Positions 7,319 to 60,499 of a DNA stretch of 64,000 bases are shown here, piece after piece. Positions within the stretch are counted from its first letter, which is position 1. Each line of letters starts with the position of its first letter. Both the position numbers and the translations under genes were made by a program. The stretch spans positions 16,106,501 through 16,170,500 of the forward strand of contig NC_056538.1 in NCBI RefSeq assembly GCF_910596095.1, given 5' to 3'. Below the pieces are notes generated by a model. The model made no database searches. It saw nothing but the letters and a program-made list of their open reading frames with translations, and was not told the DNA's origin. Source of the stretch: Thunnus maccoyii. Its lineage: Eukaryota; Chordata; Actinopteri; Scombriformes; Scombridae.

Positions 7319-20360
<13,042 letters not shown>

Positions 20361-26494: not shown

Positions 26495-27505
26495 TATGCT
26501 GGAAAAAAATAAACATGTGTATCTGTGCATGTGCATTCACAGAGATGCAAATGCATTTCTTAATTTTTAGATTTTTTTCACAAAATATTTTGACAGTTTT
26601 TGGCTGTTGCAATGATGATCCTTCTGTTGTTATCACTCTGGGACTGGGTCCAAATTAACTTTGTACCACAAGTGTGTGCAGGTGTGTGTGTGGGATGATC
26701 TTATTACATCTTTGACTTAAGCTTGAGTCAGTGTATTTCTGTCAGAATTGATATATTGTATATTAAGACAAATTAAGAGAGAGACTGATTTATAGTAAAA
26801 GAGTGCAGGGAGGGAGAGAGAGAGAGACAGGGCGCTAAATGATAGTTCAAGGGTGACAATAATCTTTGCTAGCAGACAATCTAACTTGACATTAATTTCC
26901 TCTAATGGATCTATGTCTGATTAAGACGATGAATATCCCTGAACTGGATGGGACGCAAAAAGAATAGATTGGATGTCCTATTGATGTACAGTAAAACATT
27001 TTTCCCATGTCTCCTCTCAGGCATAAAAAAGATATTTTTTCCAGACTATGAAAGAGACAAAAAGTAGAATTATAATTTTGTCATGTATTCATTTTTATAG
27101 GACACAGGTCAGATTTATAACAAGGTCACAAACATTAGAAATGAAATTGTTCTTGGTTGTGAACTTTGGAACTTTGGATACCTTACTTCTGTGTTTCAGA
27201 TTTATGATTACCTGATAAAAAAAATATACAAATTCACATTTATGCTTCATGTTTTCTGTGAAGCTTTTTGTTTCACTTGTTTGTTTATTTATTTATTTAT
27301 TTATTTTAAGTAATGTGATTAATGTTTTGTATCTCTGTATGGTATATATATATATATATATATATACTAAAAAAGAGGGAGATAAGAGGGGAACGACTAA
27401 ACTGGAAAAACCGAATTACTGTAAGTAGCCTGTGGTTTTATAAGGGTTTTTGTAAAGATGCACACATACACAAAAACATGCAAGCATGCACATGCAATAA
27501 ACACG

Positions 27506-38814: not shown

Positions 38815-41404
38815 GGTTACTGCTCCTGTTAAGCTGTTTGTGGTTGTCATATACCGCCCACCAGGGTGTCAACTGGGGAACTTTGTTGTCAAACTTCACA
38901 CATCACTCTCAGCCATGCCTGATAATGACGCACCACTAATTGTCATGGGAGACATGAATATTCATATTGACAAAACCCAAGCAGCTGACCTCCTGTCACT
39001 TCTGTCCTCATTTGACCTCAAACAGGTGTCCACCCCTCCCACACACAAAGCAGGCAATACTCCTGATCTGATTTTGACTCGCCATTGCTCCACAGCAAAT
39101 ATGTCAGTCACCCTCCTACATCCCTAACCCCTACTTCTTTATTCAATTCACGATCACCTTACCAGAGCATCCTCATATTCCTCCTTCTGCTGCGAAATCC
39201 GGTACCTCACACTGACTCAACTTTCCAATGAGGTCTTGGCTACCCTGCCTCCTCCTAATGAATTTTCCTCACTCCTGGTCAATGAGACTACAGACACACT
39301 CTGTTCCTCACTAGCTGCCTCTCTTAACAATCTCTGCCCTCTAACATCCAAACCTGCTTGCATCACCGCCCCAGTCCATGGCTCACTGAAGTCATCAGAG
39401 AGCAAAGGGCGGAACTCAGAGCAGCAGAGAGAAAATGGCGTAAATCCAGAGAGCCCATTGACCTCACTGACTATCAGGGTCTCCTCGCATCATTCTCCTC
39501 CATTTTAATTACTTACTATCAGAACAAGATCTGTGATGCCACAGATGTGCGGAAAATGTTCTCTGCCTTTAACTCACTCCTCAGTATGCCTCCTCCTCCG
39601 CCCTCCACTCAGGGCCACACTCTCCTCATTCTACCCTCTGACTGAGGACGAAGTCTCCAAACTTCTGCTGGACTCTTGTCCTACTACCTGTCCACTGGAC
39701 CCAATACCATCCAACCTTCTACAGACCATTTACCCCGCACTTAACCTCGCAGTTACACACATCATCAACTCTTCACTCACAACAGGTGTCCCCGCCGCAT
39801 TTAAGCAAGCCTGAGTCACCCCGCTGCTCAAAAAACCTACACTCAACCCAGCCCAGGTTGAAAACTACAGACCGGTTTCACTCCTGCCCTTCCTATCAAA
39901 AATACTTGAGTGCATAGTCTTTAACCAAGTATCTGAATTCCTTTCTGAGAACAACCTGTACGACTCCAATCAGTCTGGCTTTAAGTGGGGTCCTTCTACC
40001 AAGACTGCACTCCTGTGGGTTATGGAATCACTACTACTAGAGCTGCTGGTGAGTCCTCAGCTCTTTTGCTGCTAGATCTGTCAGCTGCCTTTGATACAGT
40101 TAACCATCAAATCCTCCTCTCCACACTCACTGAGCTTGGTATCTCAGGATCCACACTCCACTGGTTCATGTCCTACCTCTCAGGGAGATATTTTAGAGCA
40201 TCTTGGAGGGGGAAAGTGTCCAAACCTACAGCTTATCCACAGGGGTTCCTCAAGGGTCAGTGCTTAGTCCCCTTCTTTTCTCAATATGCACCATTTCACC
40301 TGGCGCAATCATCCACTCCCATGGTTTCTTATACCATTGCTATGCTGACGATACCCAGCTCTTCCTGTTGTTCCCGCCAGAAGACCACACGGTCTCGGCT
40401 CAGATCTCATCATGCCTTGCTGATATATCAGCATGGATGAAAGAACGCCACCTTCAACTCAACCTCTCTAAGACTGAGCTCCCTGTCTTCCCATCCAGTC
40501 CCTATATACAACAAAACATCAGCATCCAGCTCGAATCAACCCAACTCATACCCACAAAGTCTGCCCGTAACTTGGGTGTCATGATCGATGACCAACTAGT
40601 CTTTAAGATTCATGTGGCCTCAATTGCTCGGTTGTGTCGGATTGTCCTGTACAACTCATGAAGATCAGACCCTACCTGTCTGAGCATGCAGCACAACTCC
40701 TGGTACAGGCTCTCGCAATATCACGCATTGACTGCTGCAACTCCTTACTGGCAGGCCTCCCTGCATGTATGTTCAAACCATAGACTGTATAAAAATATGG
40801 ACGTTGTTACCATGATGTCACCTGTTGGTTTCTGAAGTGCGGTTTTGAGGCTCAAAGTGAGCGCCATCTGTCGCCATCTTGGTAGTGTGTGACTCTGCAT
40901 AACTCCCAGCCAATCAAAAATGGGCAAAGAGGCGGGCCGAATGGCTGAAACAAGCCACCTAGCGGCTGGTGGACCTGTCACTCAAAGCAGCCATGTCCTT
41001 CATTATGCATAACTTTACGGCCTAATAAAATTTAAACAGGTGAGTTATAGAAGAAAAAATCACCCCCCATACAGTTGTCATGAAAGGGAAATTAGCTATA
41101 GAGACCAAAACTGTTTTTTGCACCAGGCTGTAAACATGTTTTCTGTAATTCTGCTGTAAAGTTTGGCATTTTAACATGGGGGTCTATGGGGATTGACTCA
41201 CTTTTGGAGCCAGCCTCAAGTGGCCATTCAAGGAGCGGCAGTTTTCTGCATTGGCTTAATTTTTCAGCCCCAGAGTTTGCCGCTTGGTTCAAACCTCTGC
41301 TTACTTACTCTTGTTGTTCTCTCCTGACTAGATCCTTGATTGTGTTGTATCAGCTCTCAGATGTATGTCGCTTTGGATAAAAGCATCTGCTAAATGAAAT
41401 TGTA
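38815..41404 (+). mobile_element. L2-like LINE nested in the DIRS-like element
   Basis: Starts within an endonuclease domain (VIYRPPGCQLGNF, MGDMNIHID, AADLLSLLSSFDLKQVSTPP at 38840-39060), continues through linker text, then reverse transcriptase (LLLDLSAAFDTVNHQILL near 40060-40110; [15 protein letters not shown] near 40240; YADDTQLFL near 40335) and a C-terminal region to about 40770. The 3' tail CGCTTTGGATAAAAGCATCTGCTAAATG (41370-41397) is that of fish L2-type elements. Frameshifts near 39125, 39820 and 40250 make it inactive. The 507-bp repeat at 40780-41286 splits its 3' part. Confidence 0.8.
40780..41286. mobile_element. 507-bp unclassified repeat with 9-bp target duplication
   Basis: Inserted in the L2-like LINE and flanked by GTTCAAACC at 40771-40779 and 41287-41295. 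It starts ATAGACTGTATAAAAATATGG and includes CGCCATCTGTCGCCATCTTGG. It has no coding frame of note. The terminal sequences are not obvious inverted repeats, so it could be a SINE-like or an end-eroded DNA element. A second copy is cut by the start of the window. Confidence 0.75.
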
Positions 41405-47828: not shown

Positions 47829-48756
47829 CACACACACTAACACTGCCCTCATCCTAACCTCCTTTTCGCCCTGCACTCACAAATTATCTCAGAGGACTGC
47901 AGATAATTCCCTCATCAGCGTCCAACCTCATTCATTTTTAACCGACACCACTGATCTCACATCAGCACTAATGCTCAGTGACAGGGTGAAAAGGGAGACA
48001 AACAGATGAATGGAAAGGAGGAAAACTGAAGAGTATAAGGAATTTTATAGACTGGACCATATGGAATTTCATCACATGTTTTGATTGAAATAATTTGGAT
48101 GTTCATATATATTTTGTTGAAAAAATTATGTTATAGATGTATGAGTAGTTAAGAAAAGGGAGAGAAGAGGGGATAGGTAAAAGTGAAGGAGAGGAAAAAC
48201 AAAGCGTGACATAAGAGGATGATGGGAGAAATTAGTAGAGGTGAACAGGTGAATGAAGAAGGCCTGTGCACAACACGCAAGCAAGCACTTAAATAAAACC
48301 AGAAGGTGTTGAATGATGTCCTGTTGAGTTGTACTTGTCTTGCAGTCAATATGATGTGAAACAGGTGAGAAAATATGAGGGGAGGAAGAGGAGCAGGAAG
48401 GAGGGAAGGAGGAAAAAAGAGAGAGTTAGAGAACAAAGAGTCAGAGGAGGAAAGTAAGAGGAGATATGCTTTGGAATAAGACAAACTCCTACTTTTGGTG
48501 CAGCTATGCGAACAAACACTGGTGTGGTTAATATTCAATGCCCAGATGCATGGCTGAAAAAGTTTTTAACTGAAAAGATTGTGTGTGCAAATGTACGTGT
48601 GTGTGTGCATGTGTTTGGGAAAGAGCGGAAGAATTTTCAGCCACTCTGTGTCAGAAATAATTAATCTATTTTTTCCTCTCTTCTCCCTCCCATTTCCATT
48701 TGCCTCTCTCCTCTTTTTAATTTCAACATTGTCCTCCCTTTCACCTCCATAAGCAG
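47042..48756. other. Region upstream of the TUNAR-like exon A, with microsatellites
   Basis: Contains (CA)n at 47362-47386, (GA)n at 47787-47826 and a GA-rich tract at 48140-48470. A long pyrimidine tract (48665-48750) leads into acceptors at AAG (48753) and CAG (48756). Confidence 0.5.
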
Positions 48757-48787
48757 GCGTCGCGCCCTGTGGGGGTGGGGTTCTGTG

Positions 48788-48955
48788 ATGGTAACCATGG
48801 TCCCCGGCAGCCGCTATGTCTGCAGCGCTCATGCAAGAGAGGAGGACGCCACGAACGACCGCGAAGAGCGAATTCTAGCCGTGCTGGGCATCATTGGAAC
48901 CATCCTCAATCTTTTAGTGGTCATATTCGTCTACATCTACACCTCTGTCACTTAA
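48788..48955 (+). CDS. tunar: TUNAR-like microprotein, copy A (55 codons)
   Basis: A complete frame from ATG 48788 to TAA 48955 sits in an exon preceded by a strong pyrimidine tract and CAG acceptor at 48754-48756. The second ATG, at 48797, has the ideal context ACCATGG and may be the true start; either gives a protein beginning MV, as in mammalian TUNAR. Layout: a polar acidic N-terminus (EEDATNDREER) and one hydrophobic C-terminal segment (about residues 30-51, GIIGTILNLLVVIFVYIYT) with only three residues after it. The tail is nearly identical to that of mammalian TUNAR, a 48-residue ER-membrane microprotein (BNLN/pTUNAR) reported to bind SERCA2 and influence calcium in neural and beta cells. 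The locus was long treated as a non-coding RNA (TUNA/megamind). The fit in tail, size and linkage with hhipl1 (both on human 14q32) makes orthology likely. The start codon choice is unproven. Confidence 0.85.
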   Translation: MVTMVPGSRYVCSAHAREEDATNDREERILAVLGIIGTILNLLVVIFVYIYTSVT

Positions 48956-48980
48956 GGTTTTTGGCGAGACTTGAACAAGA

Positions 48981-49041
48981 ACCATTGGCACTGTCGCCAA
49001 CTCTTCTACTGCCATCTCCTCACCGCTGTGCTCCTCTTTAA
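48981..49041 (+). pseudogene. Very weak possible TUNAR-like relic
   Basis: ACCATTGGCACTGTCGCCAA (48990-49009) lines up with the start of the copy A membrane segment (IIGTILN read as TIGTVAN), but agreement fades quickly (about 23 of 39 bases). It may be chance. Confidence 0.2.
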
Positions 49042-49089
49042 GTATTTATGTACTTGGAGGGTTTGATTATTCAGAGTAAGTGATAAAAT

Positions 49090-49165
49090 GTGAGGATCAT
49101 TGGCAGCGTGTTCAGCTGGATAGTAGCCATATTTATCTAAGCCTACACCTGCATCGCTGAGTATC
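49090..49165 (+). pseudogene. Decayed TUNAR-like copy, 206 bp after copy A
   Basis: Ungapped comparison of 49093-49155 with 48887-48949 gives about 40 matches in 63 bases, including ATCATTGG and the ATATT core. The translation (RIIGSVFSWIVAIFI, stop, AYTCIAE) follows copy A (GIIGTILNLLVVIFVYIYTSV) but has a stop where the Tyr should be, and no upstream ATG frame. It is not coding as it stands. Confidence 0.6.
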
Positions 49166-49309
49166 CCTTGAGACAGTTCCCACGCTGTTATCTAAAGACT
49201 GCTGCCAATCAGAAAAAGGAGCAACAGGTGGATCCCTCCGCTATTCATATCAAACTGTATCTTTGATTTTTTTCAAGACAGCTTCACACAACCACACGTT
49301 AAATGACTG

Positions 49310-49360
49310 CTGACAGTGTGTCCAGTCTGGTAGTGGTCATATGTGTCTGATCCATGACTG
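49310..49360 (+). pseudogene. Decayed TUNAR-like copy, 416 bp after copy A
   Basis: CTGGTAGTGGTCATAT (49327-49342) matches the LLVVI part of copy A, and the frame reads DSVSSLVVVICV then stop. The TAGTGGTCAT block begins at 49331, 210 bp after the equivalent TAGTAGCCAT in the previous relic (49121), which itself is 206 bp after copy A (48915). A further partial echo, GATGGTGGCCATATTT, is at 49391-49406. Confidence 0.45.
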
Positions 49361-49739
49361 CGACAGGAGATGAGCTCCTGTCTTTGATCTGATGGTGGCC
49401 ATATTTGACTTTGCTGCATCTGCCATTTTCTTATATCACTCTGTAAAAGTGTGTGGTTTCTGTCTTTTTTTCATCACACATTTGTAGAATTAGAATTTTT
49501 TTACTGCAAGGTAAACATATTTAAATGGTTTGACAAACACGGCTCTGAGTGATCAAATTAGTATAAAAGAAGATATACAATAGGGACCAAAATTGCCAAG
49601 TGAACCATCAGATGAAGGACCCTCATGCCTATCCTTAACTTCACTTGAATAGAACATCATTACAGATAAACTAATAAAAAAATCACTCAGTGCTGATTTT
49701 CAGTTTCTGTAGTTAGTAGCATCACTGAAGAAGTTTTAC

Positions 49740-49862
49740 ATGGAACTAACATGTCCATACCTGAGCACACCAGAGGAGAGATTCCTGGCTGTGCTCGGAG
49801 TCATCGGAATTGTACTCAACCTCCTACTTCTTGTTTTTGTCTATATATACACCTCCATCTGA
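49740..49862 (+). CDS. TUNAR-like microprotein, copy B (40 codons)
   Basis: Complete frame ATG 49740 to TGA 49862: a short N-terminus (MELTCPYLSTPEERFLAV) followed by the hydrophobic tail LGVIGIVLNLLLLVFVYIYT and two last residues. The tail matches copy A at most positions and the differences are conservative (I/V, V/L), while the linking DNA differs at many third positions; this suggests protein-level constraint. The acidic N-terminal stretch of copy A is almost gone; only PEER remains. Start context is weak (T at -3). An acceptor-like TTTTCAG lies at about 49698-49704, so it could be an alternative last exon of the copy A transcript or a separate small gene. Function unknown, presumably a single-pass ER or membrane peptide. 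Confidence 0.65.
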   Translation: MELTCPYLSTPEERFLAVLGVIGIVLNLLLLVFVYIYTSI

Positions 49863-49994
49863 TATATGTGCTTCCTCTCCACCTACAGTATCAGTTATGA
49901 GATGAACCTGCCAAACCTAACTGCACCTGTACCAAACAGCCAGGGGTGCCAGTGATTGTATGTACGTACATTTAGTATGTTCTATAGCCACAAT

Positions 49995-50035
49995 CTCTAG
50001 CTATTCTTGGGATTATATGTAATATACAGAGCTCA
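49995..50035 (+). pseudogene. Possible TUNAR-like relic after copy B
   Basis: CTAGCTATTCTTGGGATTATA (49998-50018) reads LAILGII, matching LAVLGVI of copy B and LAVLGII of copy A, then degenerates. Too short to be certain. Confidence 0.25.
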
Positions 50036-50289
50036 GGAGAAGGAGGTTTGTTCACTGACCAACTTACAATAGAAATACACTTTCAAAGACACTTTTTTGT
50101 GGAAATGTATGTCCTGCAATTAGTGTTTTAGTTGTCTTTCACATATGTGCATCATAAGCTTGCATTGCTATAATCTTTATTATGCTTTGACCAAAATAAC
50201 TGATGCAAAGACTGCCTTCTTTGCTGTAATTTGTCTGTTTGTTCTACACGCCTGTTGATGTTACAAGTAGAAAGCACCCAAATTTGGAA

Positions 50290-50799
50290 ATGGATGGTGT
50301 CAACAACAAAGATCCCTCTGTGGAAGGTCAGTACCACAGAATAATGGTCTATGTTCTGGTGTCATGTTTCTGTGATTGGATCTCTAAACCAGCCACGGAG
50401 CATCATCAAAGAAGGCAAAGTGTGGAACTGAGACAATGTCACACAAATCAAGATGGTGTACTATTGCAGTGCAATACAAAGGCATGGAATAGTAACAAAG
50501 AAATCGTGCAGAACTGGCGAGGATTGCCTAAAAAAAGAGGACATAAAACCTCTGTGCAAGGCCTCACCATCTGTCTCGAAACTCGTCAAGGCATGAAAAA
50601 CTCCCTGGGATTGGGTTACAACATTTCCATTGGAGCAGCATGTCACTATGGGTATGATTTAAAGTCTAAGCGCTGTGCCTCTGATGGAGGAGCGAACTTA
50701 AATGCAGTTGACAGGCGAGCAGGAAGGACTGGTCTGAATCTACACTTCATCCTTGTCATTCTCTTTTCCACCAACAAGCTAACGCCAGAGAAGACATAG
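50290..50799 (+). CDS. Unrecognised 169-codon open frame
   Basis: From ATG 50290 to TAG 50799 this is the longest AUG-started frame in the window outside hhipl1 and mobile elements. The product is polar, has several Cys and no obvious signal peptide or membrane span except a short hydrophobic run near its end (LNLHFILVILF). I recognise no family. It lies 430 bp after copy B on the same strand and could be part of the same transcript's 3' region. Base composition is more balanced than its flanks. It may be a chance frame, an old transposon fragment or a real lineage-specific gene. Confidence 0.2.
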   Translation: MDGVNNKDPSVEGQYHRIMVYVLVSCFCDWISKPATEHHQRRQSVELRQCHTNQDGVLLQCNTKAWNSNKEIVQNWRGLPKKRGHKTSVQGLTICLETRQGMKNSLGLGYNISIGAACHYGYDLKSKRCASDGGANLNAVDRRAGRTGLNLHFILVILFSTNKLTPEKT

Positions 50800-51439
50800 T
50801 AGTGAGAGGACCCACATGAGCAGCAAGTGTCATTTCACATAGCACAATACTTTTATATTTACACACATGCATCAGTCAGAGGTACTAGGGAAGACACAAT
50901 GACGAAAACCCCCCAAAACATTTGGTTTTCCACATTGAACTCTGACTGCTCACTTAACTGCAATTTTACATGTCGGCTTGTGAGACTAAGTATTGAGATT
51001 TTGCATTGTAAGATTCCTTGTTACATTGTGTGTGTATGCTCGTAGTTTTAGTATCAGTTTACCTTTGAGTGTTTCGTTTGAACTGGTTTTGCAAGCAGAC
51101 CTGAGAGTCACAACATCGGGATGAAACACAACAGATGTCTCTAGATATATGAGGGTTCTAGTGGCCACAGTCTATCTTTGTGTAGACGGTCATCTTCAGA
51201 TACAGATTTTAAATATTTCCATGGCCATGTTTACAGAATGCTGGATGAACAAGTATTCACCATTTGCCTGCTGGAATAATTAGCTTTTATTAATAATGAT
51301 TAGTTGCTTTGTTGAATACCAAAACAGTGAAGAGGACAAATAAAAAAGGTACGTATTGGATTTGCTTGTAATGCATAAGCAACTTAATGCCTTAGGACTC
51401 TGTTTCACATCTTCTCAATTGCAAATACACACACATTTG
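50800..51439. other. No recognised gene; candidate poly(A) signal
   Basis: AATAAA occurs at 51339-51344, a possible 3' end for a transcript carrying copy B. Nothing else recognised. Confidence 0.3.
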
Positions 51440-51999
51440 TACTTCTATACTTGAGGACGTTCACTTACATATTGTATTTACCTCTAACCTTAGCTTTCAC
51501 ATGCCTGACCCCAAATCTCTATGTAACTATAACCTAAACCTGATTCTAACCTTAAAGTTAAACTGAGATTTATCACAAATTCAGGTTTTATTTTAATCGC
51601 TCGGGTGATCATTTCTATCAGCTATGCTAACAATGTCCTCACCAAAATGATTGCTGAGATCTGGGAACACAGTGGCATTAATAAAAATCCAGTGCAGCAG
51701 AGTACACAAAGTTAGTCAAACTTATTATTACCCAAATTGTTGTTACCATGCTTCACTCAGTTTTTCTGCACAACGAGGGATTATTAGCAGCAGGGAAGTT
51801 TCCTTTTGGTAGCTATCTAGTGAAACTGTCGGCTACTGCTACTGTTTCTTGCCCTGTTATTCTCATCAATGCAATATCAGCAATTACTTTGGTCACTCTT
51901 AATCGTTTCCACGCTTTGAAGAAGCGAGAACTAAAGGCTGAAATGCCTGCACTTTCCAAAACCTTCCTCACTAAATGGGTCCTCACAAAGATAGAAGTA
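51440..51999. mobile_element. Probable non-autonomous transposon with inverted ends
   Basis: Left end TACTTCTATACTTGAGGAC (51440-51458) is inverted at the right as GTCCTCACAAAGATAGAAGTA (51979-51999). The left interior has CTAACCTTAGC/CCTAAACCTGATTCTAACC text common in a dispersed fish repeat. The 91-codon frame inside (51748-52023) shows no transposase motif. Confidence 0.5.
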
Positions 52000-52958
52000 A
52001 GCACTCACATGCTCGCTACTTAGATCTCTCTTCATGAGTTTAATTTTACACCATCTTTCAGCACACATCAGGAGATTTGATGTTAGCATGCTGAGATAGA
52101 TGTGACTTGTGCATTTACTTCCTGTCACATCTAATAACTGTACAGTGGAGTTTGTTGAGCTAAATCCATTTTAAGTGTGCACCAAAGCACAGTATGAGCC
52201 ACCTTCGGTTCGCTAGACATCTGCTGTCAGACGGTGACAGTCGAAGCAGCAGCTGTGCGACTGTGAGACACATTTGAATATACTTTGACTAAAGTACTGG
52301 AGATATTTTGGTCCACTTTGTACTGCCTCAGAGGGGTTACTTGTTGCAAAAAAAAAAAAAAAAAAATACACACACACACTCTTAGCTATTTAGCTCAGGT
52401 TTACTCAGATACAGGCCATGGTTTTGCCAATGTGGGTTTACAAAGACCAACAGAAAAATATATTTTTAGACTGAAAAAAGCAAAAGACATTTATTTTGAG
52501 CCTATAATCAGTCTTTTTAACTTGACAATGCTCATGCCAAAATGATTAAAATGTGTATCCAAGAATAGTTTTATTGTTTATTTAAGCCCAGACCCTAAAA
52601 GGCTGAGTTATAGTATAGTAGGCCTGAAAATGAATAACATCGATTTTTAGACTGTTTTGTTTGTTTCCTGTAGCCATGGTCACGGAGAACCCTCGGACAT
52701 GTTGGCAACGGCAGTGTAACTGGTATTTTATTGAAGTCCAGTATTATCCCAACATATTGGCTTTTGATAAGTCCATAGTCTGCCTGGGATACATACAACC
52801 ATGTTTTCTGCATGAAGTTCAAGTTTTCGGTTAAGACCAGTTTTAACATGACAGACTCACTGCCGAGCAGACCAATGAAAGCAGAGCGCCCACAAGGCAA
52901 GTCCTGGCCATCTGCTGTCCCCACAGACACCCAGCCACCTCCTCAACGTACACACACG

Positions 52959-52999
<41 letters not shown>

Positions 53000-53681
53000 A
53001 GCATGGACTTTCATCTAACAATTCAACATAATTTTCCACTTTGCATTCAAATACAGAGTTTTAGATTGTTCAAGATTTATTTTGATGCATGTTTATGTTT
53101 TTTTAATCATTCTACAAGTTAAATAGGCTACTATGTGCACACACATTATGTTATGGAAAAAGCCTCCGGTGCCACAGAGAAAACAGGCGCATCAGAGCAC
53201 ACCTGGGACTGCACTGCTATTGCCCCAAGCCTGAAATATTAAAACACTGAAAACAAGGTGACAATGGTCAAAGACAAAATGTTCATTCTGAGTCTGAGCC
53301 AGTCAGCGTCTGTGTTATGTTCAGCCAAGGCAAAGGATGGATTCTCATGTTTTTTCATGATGCATAAGCTGAAATGATTTTTTAGCCTGACAGGGCATAT
53401 TGGACACAGCCTGTCTTAGACTAGAGAGAAAATCATGGAGAAAAGAAGCAGCTTGAGATATTTTAATTTAAAAATATTTTAATTCAGCAACAAAGCTGGA
53501 TAATATTTAGGAAAAATAAATATTTTTTTTAGCGATTAAAAATAATCTTGCGTGGGAAGGCAAAATTGGGGCATGACAGGTTCCAGTTTTACACTGTATG
53601 ATGTATTATAGCTGCAGCACAGTTCCCAGTTCACAGTACCCAGGGGAAAGTGTTGGTGCCTTTTACAGGTCCTGACATTCA

Positions 53682-53734
<53 letters not shown>

Positions 53735-54618
53735 GAGATACATTTTGTTTGTTTTACACATAACTTTTTATTCAACTTCAGATTACTTCCCGAGCAGGGT
53801 CTGAGAAATGATCCCTTAATCAAAGTTTTGAGTGATATTTAGATAGTGACTGACATTCCAGGACAGGAGCTGCTGCAGTACCAGCTGAGCATGCTGTAGA
53901 TCTGTGATGGCAGATGTCCAGAATGTCTACCCCACTGTTCATGTTTGCTTCTATCAGCAAGTAATAAAAGCTGTATTGTCTAAGGAAAGAAACTGCGTCC
54001 TCACATTTTATCTATTTATGATGAAGAAACAGTTTGTTAAATACCTTGAAAGGTCCCATTGAAAAGGATGCTGTGAAATCTGGTGTACTTTCATGTAATG
54101 TTTATATATATAATATATAGTTAAAGCAATGCCAATAAAAATGAAAAACATCACTTTCAAGGAGTTACAGTTTTTTATATAATGGAAAATAGACACACTG
54201 AATTTCTCACCTGCAACATGTGTTTTCACAACATTGTTCTAGAGAAAACCTTCAGTTTCAGGGTTCTGGCTCACTGTCACACTATCAGGGCTTACTGGGT
54301 CACTTCTGATCATGACAAGTGTTAGCTGTGAAAAAGGCCTATAATTTTGGTCATCTCATCCACTGGAGAGTGGATGAGTGGTCAAACGTTATGCTAATGT
54401 ATCTCAGGGTGGTCCAGTGACACTGAGATTCTTAATAAAATTAAGTCAAAACTTAACACTGTTGAATTGAGAATTTGCACATTGCATAGCTTTTTTAATG
54501 TTGGTATTGATATTTTTGTCTACTTGGGGATTTTACCTGTTAGTCAACATCTGTCATATTCAGCAAAAAATGACTTGAAAAAGCATCTGAAGCTTTTCTT
54601 GTTGGATGAAATATGAGT
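52000..54618. other. Intergenic with microsatellites
   Basis: Poly(A) at 52348-52366, (CA)n at 52949-53000 and (TA)n at 53684-53731. No gene recognised. Confidence 0.6.
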
Positions 54619-54987
54619 AGAGCTTCAACGAGTAGTTGATTAATCGATTAGTTGCCAACTATTAAATTAATTGCCAATTATTTAATCAATTAATTGTTTT
54701 GAGTCTATTTTTAAGAAGAAAACTACCAAATTCTCAAATTCTAGCTTATCAAATATGAATATTTGCTGGTTTCTTTAGTCTTCTTTTACAGTAAACTGAA
54801 TATCTTTGGGTTGTGGATTGTTGGTCGGGACAAAACTACACATTTGACATTAGGCTTTGGGAAACTGTAATCAATATTTTTCACCGTTTTCTGACATTTT
54901 ATGGACCAAACAACTAATTGATTACTGTAATTGAGAAAATAATGGACAGATTAATCAATAATGAAAATAATCAACAGTTGCAGCCCT
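54619..54987. mobile_element. MITE with AGGGCTGCAAC-type ends
   Basis: The left end AGAGCTTCAACGAGTAGTTG (54619-54638) and the right end CAACAGTTGCAGCCCT (54972-54987) are imperfect inverted repeats; both are next to ATTAATCGAT-like blocks. AAATATGA at the left and AAATATAG at the right may be a decayed 8-bp target duplication, which would fit a hAT element. Internal text is AT-rich and non-coding. This is a familiar teleost repeat. Confidence 0.75.
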
Positions 54988-55714
54988 AAATATAGGACTG
55001 ATTTTGAGCTGTTTTTCTACTAGCTGGCGTGTTTTGCATATTGTTTTTGTACATTGATTTATAAGTTACCAACAAATGAGGAGTGAAGATGCACATACGC
55101 TTAGCTGCACCTTGTTATGTACACATTTGACATGGGTTACATATAATTTATGGAAAATGTGTAGGTTTATAGATCATATTTGCCATTTTCAGACTCGTAT
55201 TTTACCTGCTGCCCTGCTGCCTCTTGTCTCCAGGCATATCAGGGAGCATCTAAGTCCTTTCAGCAGACATAATAATCAAACTGAGCAACCATCCTAACTA
55301 CTTCAAATTCTGTTCATTCAGGGATGATCTTTGATATGCGTCAGAGTACCTCAAACATGGCCAACATCCAGTTTAGTTATGTATTCACAGTTTCACTTTT
55401 TATCTGGATTCAACTTGAGTGCTCGGTGCTCTTATACCCTTCAGCTCCTCTGAGGGTTTTTCCTCTTGTTTATTCTTCTGGCTTGTCAGTGGGATGCATC
55501 TTAATTCCATGTTGTCTTGAATGCACTAGCAGTATGAGAACAAGGTTATCACCCACGGAGCAGAGCTCGTTTTAAGTAGTGTAGTTGCTTTGGCAGACCT
55601 GTGCTGTTGTGTGCAGCCATGCTCAGCCAGCCAGATAAACTAACAGTGTGTCCTCAGGCGCCCTATGACACAGCCACTGACTTGGCTAATATGGGTGGCT
55701 GCCCTCTGCACACA

Positions 55715-55765
<51 letters not shown>

Positions 55766-57612
55766 CACAACACAAATGCGAACATGCATACACACAAACA
55801 GACTCATACGCACCAGCCTATAATCTCTAGCAAAGATCTGACTACTGCTCAAATGTAAAATCTAGTGTGACTTAATATCTACCTTTTTCCTGTTCTCCTC
55901 TACCCTCTGCACCCTCTGCACCACAAACATTTATGATCTTCTCTCAGCGCCTCAGTCCATTGTTTGCTGAGATCCTATTTTAGTCTTTAGTTAGTTTGCC
56001 AGCTCAAGCATGAACTCCATCCCTGGCTTTAAGCCTCAAGCAACTATCACTGGAACAAGGAAAGATGTTTTATGTAAACAGTAATATAATGTCCTATTTG
56101 CCTGTTGAGTGTAACAATTCCCTCAGAAGTTCACCCAGGCTTGAAGGGAAAATACCCACTGAGTCACATAGGTTTCTGCTCATGTTTATTGTTTCTTAGC
56201 TACTTCAGATGCACCTAGAGCTCAGTTTAATGCACAAGCTACAATGTGTCTACAAAGATCTAAGTCATTTACATGATATTTTCTTATATATATTAATATT
56301 TTCTTCCTCATAGCTTTATGAGAAAATGTGGATGGTGTGACTACTTCATAGGATATCAGTACTAATATGTTCATATTTCTATTTGTCAATCACTGTTTTT
56401 CCTTATTTTGTACAAATGAATAGTTTTCTTTTCTATGTTGTTACTGTTATTTTAGCTCAATTTCTTTATAATTGGGAGTGATTGGAAGGATTAGACATTG
56501 TGACATTACCATCATCACCATCATCATCTTTGGGATGGTGTTGTTTTTCTGTGTTGTTGATTACATTGACATTTCAGTCCTAATGGTGTTTTTAGTGTTT
56601 GCTCCCATTCCTAATTACTTATCACTCATGCAGCCTTCGAGGGAGCTCAGAGAACTGCTGGAACTGGGCGATGAACACGCACACACACACACATACACAC
56701 ACACACACTGGAAAGAGAAATAGTAGATATCAGGGGATGAGAGAAACGCTTTTTTAGCTGAAAAGCTGCTCTCTCAAATGAAGATAGCACATTCTCATGT
56801 CTCTGGGGTCTCATTATTCTTTCGTCATCCCATGAGAGTCCCTGATCAATTGATTAATCGAATCTTTTACTCCCTCTATGGTCTGCTACCTCTGTCCCAG
56901 TAAGGGAGGAAGGACAAAGATCTGCTTGTTCCCTGAACATACAGTGAGACATTATTATTCCAATGGTTTGGGAGAATTTAATCAAGGTTCAAAAATGACG
57001 GATGGAGGGAAGATAAGCCTACAGGCGAGATGATGATACAGTTCAATACAGTTCGACGTCATTTACAGCAAATGGAAAGAACATAAATTCAACTTCTGTA
57101 CTGCTGAGTGACAAGTACGGGATAAATTAATCCTCTTTTTGGCAATTAAGAGCAGTATTCACACAGATTTTGAATAAACAAACCTAATCTCACCTGAACT
57201 TAAAGCTTATTTTTTCTCATAATTAAGTGAAATGATCATTCACATGGACTTAAACTGCTGGCATTAGATGACAAATGGTTTGAAGGAGCTCATCTTTGAC
57301 CCTAATTAACACCTCACCTCTACCCCTCAGCATTGCCTGTAATAAAGCCTCAATGGATCTTTATTATCAAGGGGCTCCAATGGCAAACAATCTGTTCTTC
57401 CAACTGCTTTAAATATGATTGATGTGAATCAACATTACACTATGTGTGTATGTATGTGTCTGTCTGTCTGTGAACAATGGTGTACAAAGGTAAACAAATT
57501 CCCAAAAGTGTTTGGCAAGACAGCGGCAGATAGTTCAGTATGACCAGATTTCACTTACAGACAGAACAATGATCCGAATGCACGCACACACACACAAATA
57601 AGAGGGCACATG
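54988..57612. other. Intergenic with (CA)n; upstream region of copy C
   Basis: (CA)n at 55711-55764 and 56678-56710. The 57290-57430 stretch (TAATTAACACC, then balanced sequence to AATATGATTGATG) has the look of a conserved non-coding element but nothing proves it. Frames in 55076-56723 show no family features. Confidence 0.4.
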
Positions 57613-57636
57613 TGACGTCACCATCAAGTATTTAAG
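57613..57636 (+). promoter_or_regulatory. CRE plus TATA-like core promoter of copy C
   Basis: A perfect palindromic CRE, TGACGTCA, lies at 57613-57620, followed by a TATA-like TATTTAAG at 57629-57636. A start site about 25-30 bp further (57660-57665) would give a 5' UTR of about 350 nt before ATG 58012. A CRE directly next to a TATA box is the arrangement of many cAMP/calcium-responsive neuronal and endocrine genes (established); its use here is inferred. Confidence 0.55.
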
Positions 57637-58011
57637 GGAAGGTCCTCTTCACTCCCTCGGTAACATTACCCACCAGACACACACACACACACAGAAACAC
57701 ACAAGCCACTATATTTGACCTGACACAGAAATACAGTGGCCAGGCAGCAGAGCAGCTTCTTGGCCTTGTGTGACAGTCTCAGCGACTCAAAACAGCATCC
57801 CTTTATACTCTCATTTATCACAGACCCCTGGGTCTCTGGAGTACTGATAGAAGAGGATAAAGAAGACTTTGAAATCTAAGAGCTACCAGTGCCACACAGA
57901 GTACTGTCAGTCATCGCCCGTGTGAATATTTGGATCTATTTATTTTGAGACTGGACGGGATTAGGTTAAATTAGTTTTTACTGCTATCTCAGTAAGTTTG
58001 GAGGAATATAA

Positions 58012-58639
58012 ATGGAGCCCATGACGGAAGAGAGTGATAACAAAGGAAGGAAAAACAGCTGTGAGGTAAATTTTTAAACATAAAACATTTTAAACATAAA
58101 CTTTCTTCTTCTCATCACTTAGATTTTTTTCTCTGCTTAAAAAATATATGGTGGTTGATACACTTTTATCACTGTATTGATCAGAATGGAATAAAGTACA
58201 CATATGAAATACAATAGACTCAAATATAATCCTTTAACTATCATGTTTATAAATGAATTAAACACAATGCTCATGTGGAAGGACATGAAATGTTTGCAGA
58301 TACTGAGTTAACTGCAAACTGCGGCATAGTACAGAATACCTTTAGAAGATAATTATGCCTGTACTGGAGGCGCCACCAGGTGGCTGTAAACTGTCACTAC
58401 ACCAAAGGTAATTTAATAATTCTTGCCGTGAGTACATGTGAATCATACATACTGGCCACGCACTGTACCCCTCCCTCTGTATGTCTCTGTATCTGCAGGT
58501 GGCTGATCCTGTAAGCATGCTCTCTAAACTGGTCTGGTGCAAGGTGGACCCTGAGCACATGCTCGGCCTTGTGGGTATTGTGGGCACAGTCCTCAACCTG
58601 CTGGTAGTGGTGTTGGTTTACATTTACACACCCGTCTGA
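58012..58639 (+). CDS. TUNAR-like microprotein, copy C (64 codons, two exons)
   Basis: Exon 1 coding part 58012-58065 (18 codons, MEPMTEESDNKGRKNSCE) ends at GAG with donor GTAAAT. Exon 2 58499-58639 follows acceptor TCTGTATCTGCAG; both are phase 0 and the joined frame is open to TGA. The polar, charged N-terminus is followed by a linker (residues 19-37, with KLVWCKVDPEH) and a hydrophobic tail GLVGIVGTVLNLLVVVLVYIYTPV (in two overlapping pieces, GLVGIVGTVLNLL and LVVVLVYIYTPV). The tail pattern is the same as in copies A and B. It has its own promoter (57613-57636) and poly(A) signal (58704-58709), so it looks like an independent gene 9 kb from copy A. By analogy with TUNAR it is predicted to be a tail-anchored ER-membrane microprotein; no function is known to me for this copy. 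Confidence 0.75.
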
Positions 58640-58703: not shown

Positions 58704-58709
58704 AATAAA
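58704..58709 (+). promoter_or_regulatory. Poly(A) signal of copy C
   Basis: AATAAA lies 65 bp after the TGA at 58637-58639, giving a short 3' UTR. Confidence 0.55.
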
Positions 58710-59969: not shown

Positions 59970-60499
59970 TACAGTACTGTGCAAAGGTTTTAGGTATTTT
60001 GGATGTTTAGATTATTATCCATAATGTAATACTATCGGGGAGGCATCTGATCGGTCCCAAATTTATTCTGCAGCATGACAACAACCCCAAACATCCAGCC
60101 AGAGTCATAAAGAACTCTCTTCAGCAACAAGGAGTCCTGCAACAGATGGTTTGGCCCCCACAGAGCCCCGATCTCAACAGCATGGAGTCAGTCTGGGATT
60201 ATATGAAGAGACAGAAGCAACTGAGACGCCTAAATCCACAGAAGAAGTGTGGTAACTTCTCCAAGATACTTGGAACAACCTATCTGCCAAGTACCTTGAA
60301 AACCTGTGTACAAGTATACTGCGGAGAAATGCTGCTGTTTCAAAGGTAAACTGTGCTCACACAAAATATTGATTTGATTTTTTCTGTTTATTTCAATTTG
60401 TATGAAGTTAATTGATAAATAAAAAACCTATTCATGGAATTATTATTGAAAGCATCCTCACTTTACTTTTAGTGCCTAAAACCTTTGCACAGCACTGCA
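59970..60499 (+). mobile_element. Internally deleted Tc1-like element
   Basis: The ends ACAGTACTGTGCAAAGGTTT (59971-59990) and AAACCTTTGCACAGCACTG (60479-60497) are inverted repeats. Inside is only the last part of a transposase (60146-60349: WPPQSPDLNSMESVWDYMK, then LPSTLKTCVQVYCGE). At about 530 bp it is a deletion derivative that cannot move itself. It is the same family as the fragment at 2830-3222. Confidence 0.85.

Follow-up and report, generated by a model that had tools for sequence, protein, structure and literature searches.

The TUNAR microprotein (also pTUNAR or BNLN), first known through the long non-coding RNA (lncRNA) TUNA or megamind, belongs to the Pfam family PF21954 and adjusts calcium pumping in brain and pancreas. 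The mammalian protein is described in PMC8758570 as a membrane protein of the endoplasmic reticulum (ER) that co-precipitates with SERCA2 and speeds the removal of calcium; the same paper cites another group, which reported an effect on SERCA3 in beta cells, with reuptake reduced. Our study reports on a 64-kb stretch of fish DNA (the window) that carries three TUNAR-type frames on its plus strand, here called copies A, B and C. We propose, with a probability of about three in four, that the window holds the TUNAR locus of a probably percomorph fish and that local duplication there gave rise to three protein-coding microprotein genes, whose products would be tail-anchored in the ER and would have SERCA as their partner. 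New here are B and C, which add two members to a known family and suggest that TUNAR, treated in the literature as a single gene, in mammals too, has become a small family. Among the papers listed in a search from which the subscription literature was mostly absent, none described TUNAR paralogues in its title or abstract.

The three frames translate as the initial annotation had given them, and the GT and AG splice sites of C are present. Family membership was tested with the PF21954 model (curated cut-off 27 bits), which ranks first among Pfam families for every copy: A scores 56.7 bits, B 40.0 bits and C 36.6 bits from its second exon or 35.9 bits when spliced. An ungapped six-frame scan of both strands of the window with a profile of the tail gave scores of 104.3, 100.3 and 99.0 at the sites of A, B and C, a runner-up of 42.0 at 27285, and a maximum of 32.3 in 40 first-order shuffled windows; the scores of the three tails are high by construction, as the profile was built from them, and the Pfam model is the independent test. 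On the Pfam scores and the scan against shuffles, a chance likeness of the tails to TUNAR was rejected, and the scan found no fourth intact TUNAR-like copy in the window. Its highest non-TUNAR score belongs to a hydrophobic look-alike of the tail (27285-27362, plus strand) that runs into a TA microsatellite and was taken as low complexity. A tail pattern common to all three copies had been proposed from the start; it stands once its register is corrected to [LV]-G-[IV]-[IV]-G-[TI]-[IV]-L-N-L-L-x-x-x-[FL]-V-Y-I-Y-T, in which both glycines are invariant and the first position is V in C and L in A and B. The final YT is followed by two or three residues (SVT, SI and PV), not by one to three as first stated. 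The heads had been called unrelated, and farther upstream they do differ; beside the membrane, EER[IF]LAVLG is common to A and B.

All 69 relatives collected for the three copies (52 for A, including the window's own protein, 10 for B and seven for C) carry PF21954. The relatives of A, counted among the matches listed, span percomorphs to elephant shark and include named records from Perca, Nerophis, Xyrichtys, Boreogadus, Oncorhynchus, Silurus, Pimephales, Megalops, sturgeons and Callorhinchus, some of them named TUNAR-like or TCL1 upstream neural differentiation-associated; judged by its sequence, copy A is the canonical TUNAR. One TUNAR protein of 46 residues from Callorhinchus milii (P0054, UniRef) is labelled 'HHIP-like protein 1' and is probably misnamed. 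Open copies of B and C were expected outside the window and were found, as 10 B-like and seven C-like proteins in collections that hold open frames only. The B relatives are 73-97% identical to the window's copy; nine are nameless and one is a 'hypothetical protein'. Their start, M[ED]L, is kept in 11 of 11 rows with the window included, and the extra upstream residues of five rows differ among themselves, so that conservation starts at the proposed methionine. The two named C records, from Pampus and Epinephelus, are both 'hypothetical protein'; four of the seven C proteins have the full exon-1 head (64-66 residues), and C-x-V-D-P-[DE]-H is kept in all seven. Six of the C proteins were aligned, the headless P0071 being excluded. 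The constancy of the B and C motifs indicates that within B and within C the head is conserved.

Each of the three proteins has one strongly hydrophobic stretch (best 19-residue mean 2.7-3.0). The predicted structure of B is a single helix over residues 11-39 (predicted local distance difference test score, pLDDT, 86), and that of C has helices at 22-30 and 36-61 (pLDDT 68). Hydropathy for all three copies and the predicted terminal helices of B and C thus point to one membrane helix at the C-terminus, with Y-x-Y-T at its end. As this helix ends at the C-terminus, each copy, if translated in this fish as its frame suggests, would be tail-anchored in the ER with its head in the cytosol. By extension from mammalian TUNAR, the helix that they have in common would bind partners of one class, the SERCA calcium pumps, and the time, place and strength of each copy's action would depend on its own head and control sequences. 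Nine tail positions are fixed, of which only G, G and L-N-L-L count, since Y, Y and T were imposed by the pattern used to cut out the tails; these six are identical in 70 of 70 proteins.

For B and C, docking on SERCA has in our estimate an even chance. SERCA binding is published, in the account given by PMC8758570, for mammalian TUNAR only, and that account also notes that the sign of the TUNAR effect on SERCA differs between two published reports. This disagreement weighs against our proposal, as do several features of our own data: the regulin motif LFxxF occurs in none of the 70 proteins; the nine fixed tail positions do not gather significantly on a single face of the helix (p 0.30); the six informative ones may have been kept for helix packing or dimerisation and not for SERCA; and the head of the C model is of low confidence. 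The spread of B and C among fish is likewise hard to gauge from named records (two of seven C relatives and one of 10 B relatives), and protein collections, which hold predicted open frames only, would miss broken copies elsewhere.

The strongest competing explanation, to which we give somewhat less than even odds, is that B and C are tail-anchored paralogues acting on a partner other than SERCA, such as another pump, the insertion machinery or copy A itself through dimers. The heads of B and C are unlike that of A, the juxtamembrane EER is replaced by PEH in C, and the absence of LFxxF fits this explanation as well. All 70 proteins have an asparagine at a fixed place in the tail. In A, B and C it stands 13-14 residues before the C-terminus, nearer to the end than in phospholamban (PLN, 18) and sarcolipin (SLN, 20), so that the regulin contact with SERCA M6 need not apply. 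That contact joins the polar helix residue of the regulins (Asn34 of PLN, Asn11 of SLN) to Thr805 of SERCA, according to PMC8396278, which adds that the luminal tail of SLN, including Tyr29, matters. Against a different partner stand the helix core G..G..LNLL, identical in every one of the 70 proteins, and mammalian TUNAR, which has a helix of the same family and binds SERCA2 (PMC8758570). LFxxF is also reported in that paper to be absent from pTUNAR. The regulin Pfam models gave no match to A, B or C up to an E-value of 1, with filters that drop most matches above about 0.1.

Copy B lies 0.8 kb downstream of A and starts 785 bases after the stop of A. The matches to control sequences described here for B and C were all found post hoc. 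A possible core promoter of B, TATAAAAG, is of a type with four matches on the plus strand of the window where 1.6 are expected, and an AATAAA at 49673 lies between it and the start of B. The two copies appear to be neighbours elsewhere too: for three of the 10 B proteins the longest contig is equal in size to that of an A protein (2028, 4511 and 4646). In a comparison with the 32 A proteins on contigs below 10 kb, jittered sizes gave a mean of 0.09 such coincidences and at least three in 0.011% of trials; no equal sizes were found with C, for which five of seven proteins were compared. From these sizes A and B probably adjoin in three further assemblies. The nearness, with no intron required, would allow B to be a second cistron on a long 3' part of the A mRNA, one transcript serving both and C alone being independent. 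The equal contig sizes are compatible with one transcript or with one locus, and a precedent for such an mRNA exists in the bicistronic message of the small paralogues Sloth1 and Sloth2 of Drosophila, as reported in PMC9681215. However, the AATAAA could terminate the A mRNA ahead of B, TATAAAAG could start an mRNA of B, and P0006, one of the linked A proteins, reads through an apparent pyrimidine tract before the A exon, so that its contig looks genomic and is silent on transcripts. We regard a shared message as possible but less likely than not.

Copy C lies about 9 kb downstream of A and is made of two coding exons, which when spliced encode 64 residues; translation running on into the intron would halt at the fourth codon. 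The spliced product is identical across all 64 residues to a database protein, P0065, and neither this protein nor its junction 12-mer occurs in any plus-strand frame of the window, the natural reading being that C is transcribed and spliced, as it probably is. P0065 comes from six contigs, none longer than 2034 bases, whose tag 'lgn' probably marks assembled public sequencing runs; the protein may instead derive from a retrocopy. The head of C is found by genome annotation in Pampus (89% identical) and in Epinephelus, and two further proteins, P0069 and P0070, look like unspliced readings of C. The idea that C is an alternative last exon of A was rejected, as C starts in an ATG exon of its own that is also present in the annotated proteins of Pampus and Epinephelus. 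Upstream of the first exon of C lies the sole full cAMP response element (CRE) of the window, TGACGTCA, with 0.44 expected, and a TATA-like box, TATTTAAG, follows 16 bases later, start to start; the 361 bases ahead of the ATG of C contain no other ATG. These elements make it likely, as far as sequence can indicate, that C has its own promoter.

Tentatively, and at less than even odds, we extend the proposal of three TUNAR genes to percomorph fish, which would have a set of three or more TUNAR-type regulators of SERCA. In it a constant docking helix would be combined with copy-specific heads and control sequences that tie the pump to different signals, as a neural and endocrine counterpart of the regulins of muscle. 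In such a set the CRE-TATA promoter of C would permit induction by cAMP or by calcium itself, and B would perhaps be translated as a second cistron.

The paralogy of the copies, proposed in the initial annotation, is backed by the Pfam scores, by the grouping in a tree and by the pattern of substitution. Across 26 tail codons the synonymous sites differ between copies by 77-83% and the nonsynonymous sites by 14-24% (Fisher p 3e-8, 1.5e-6 and 6e-6). With synonymous sites saturated and nonsynonymous sites mostly the same, the copies are old and kept as proteins. The tree was built on 35 columns of a short alignment with 49 distinct rows of 70, repeats being dropped, and its bootstrap had not settled. 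B and C each form one group, found in 99 of 100 replicates and set on long stems; the tree did not resolve the branching order among the copies. A hint of their age comes from the residues after YT. The A rows have two in 22 of 52, three in 29 and 27 in one, the named rows with two being carp-, catfish-, herring- and salmon-type fish, Megalops, sturgeons and elephant shark, and those with three being percomorphs and the cod Boreogadus. B has two in nine of 11 rows and three in two, and C has two in six of seven and 14 in one. These counts suggest that the duplications are older than the extra residue of A, on a single character with exceptions.

Between A and B lie two stretches that resemble decayed TUNAR tails, as would be expected of a locus that duplicates repeatedly. 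Relic 1 aligns to A with a blastn E-value of 0.005, and none of 500 shuffles scored as high; relic 2 is weak (E-value 0.26; 0.6% of 500 shuffles as high). No further relic stood out clearly from shuffles in the stretches upstream of A and of C, behind B and behind C, or between these two (lowest p 0.14). Such relics indicate that copies at this place do die, and could be taken to mean that A alone is functional, with B and C as recent duplicates in decay that are open by chance. We consider this very unlikely and set it aside, as the saturated synonymous sites with kept proteins mark the copies as old, the relatives of both have kept starts and heads, and C splices in frame. An RNA constraint with incidental frames, for which it can be said that TUNA/megamind was first described as an lncRNA and that a zebrafish mutant reportedly revealed no function (PMC6347452), is the least probable explanation of all and was rejected in view of the between-copy changes, which fall on synonymous sites, the opposite of what it would lead one to expect.

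The features of the locus are collected in Table 1.

Table 1. Coordinates of the TUNAR copies and associated features in the window.
Feature	Position	Strand	Basis
Probable beginning of the final exon of A (after a pyrimidine tract, with CAG at 48754-48756)	48757..48787	+	Sequence; splice site inferred
Copy A, canonical TUNAR, 55 residues (stop included)	48788..48955	+	Translation, PF21954, relatives
Relic 1, decayed TUNAR tail	49091..49150	+	66.7% identity to A over 60 bases
Relic 2, possible decayed TUNAR tail	49323..49348	+	80.8% identity to A over 26 bases
TATAAAAG, possible core promoter of B	49562..49569	+	Match found post hoc
Copy B, paralogue of 40 residues (stop included)	49740..49862	+	Translation, PF21954, relatives
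TGACGTCA, full CRE	57613..57620	+	Sole full CRE in window; function inferred
TATTTAAG, TATA-like box	57629..57636	+	Spacing after CRE; function inferred
Copy C, coding exon 1, 18 codons	58012..58065	+	Sequence; spliced product equals P0065
Intron of C, GT...AG, phase 0	58066..58498	+	Sequence
Copy C, coding exon 2 with TUNAR tail (stop included)	58499..58639	+	PF21954, 36.6 bits; seven relatives
AATAAA, probable poly(A) signal of C	58704..58709	+	Sequence; function inferred

Upstream of the methionine of A the frame continues in R-A-L-W-G-W-G-S-V, a loose pattern of which is matched by 22 of the 52 A rows; this stretch possibly belongs to a longer isoform and fits the mammalian TUNAR isoform of 65 residues proposed in PMC8758570. 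A first exon of A was sought by matching the N-terminal extensions of relatives to the window, and the output inspected held nothing convincing except the sequence directly upstream of A and of B. A search of the PDB with A found no relative (best E-value 0.15), and two loci on viral contigs (L001 and L002; 36% identity to A over 33 residues) were set aside as chance likeness of membrane segments.

Elsewhere in the window, an SRCR domain (PF00530, 97.8 bits) at 19617-20360 on the plus strand follows a threonine-rich stretch and goes with 17547-18113 on the same strand. This region is probably the end of an HHIPL1-like gene upstream of TUNAR, as we understand HHIPL1 to have such a domain; a possible upstream exon (12773-13183) matched nothing in Pfam or the PDB. 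Pieces of a reverse transcriptase of the long interspersed nuclear element (LINE) type lie in two frames at 39985-40661 on the plus strand (PF00078, 31.1 and 51.8 bits), and a remnant that resembles a Tc1-type transposase end at 60146-60349, also on the plus strand, scores 25.8 bits with DDE_3, below the cut-off of 28.6.

Copies B and C are natural variants in which one fixed membrane core carries different heads, and so allow the effect of the helix to be separated from that of the head. In a fish that has B and C, a knock-out of A alone could be masked by them. The dispute over megamind in zebrafish is not explained by paralogues unless zebrafish has such copies.

A comparison with described systems highlights what is shared and what differs. 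Sloth1 and Sloth2 of Drosophila are, like A and B, two small peptides coded close together; according to PMC9681215 they are regulators of mitochondrial complex III made from one bicistronic transcript, an arrangement which for A and B is only a rival reading. The regulins (phospholamban, sarcolipin, myoregulin, endoregulin and another-regulin), together with DWORF, are the comparison for how the copies would work, being small tail-anchored helices that act on SERCA in several paralogue-like versions and that have, as the TUNAR-type copies do, a polar residue in the helix; they belong to a different sequence family, and their asparagine lies farther from the C-terminus. Closest of all is TUNAR itself, with the same helix and the same C-terminal Y-I-Y-T as the three copies; it is one gene in the literature, whereas B and C differ from it in their heads and C has in addition a coding intron and probably a promoter of its own.

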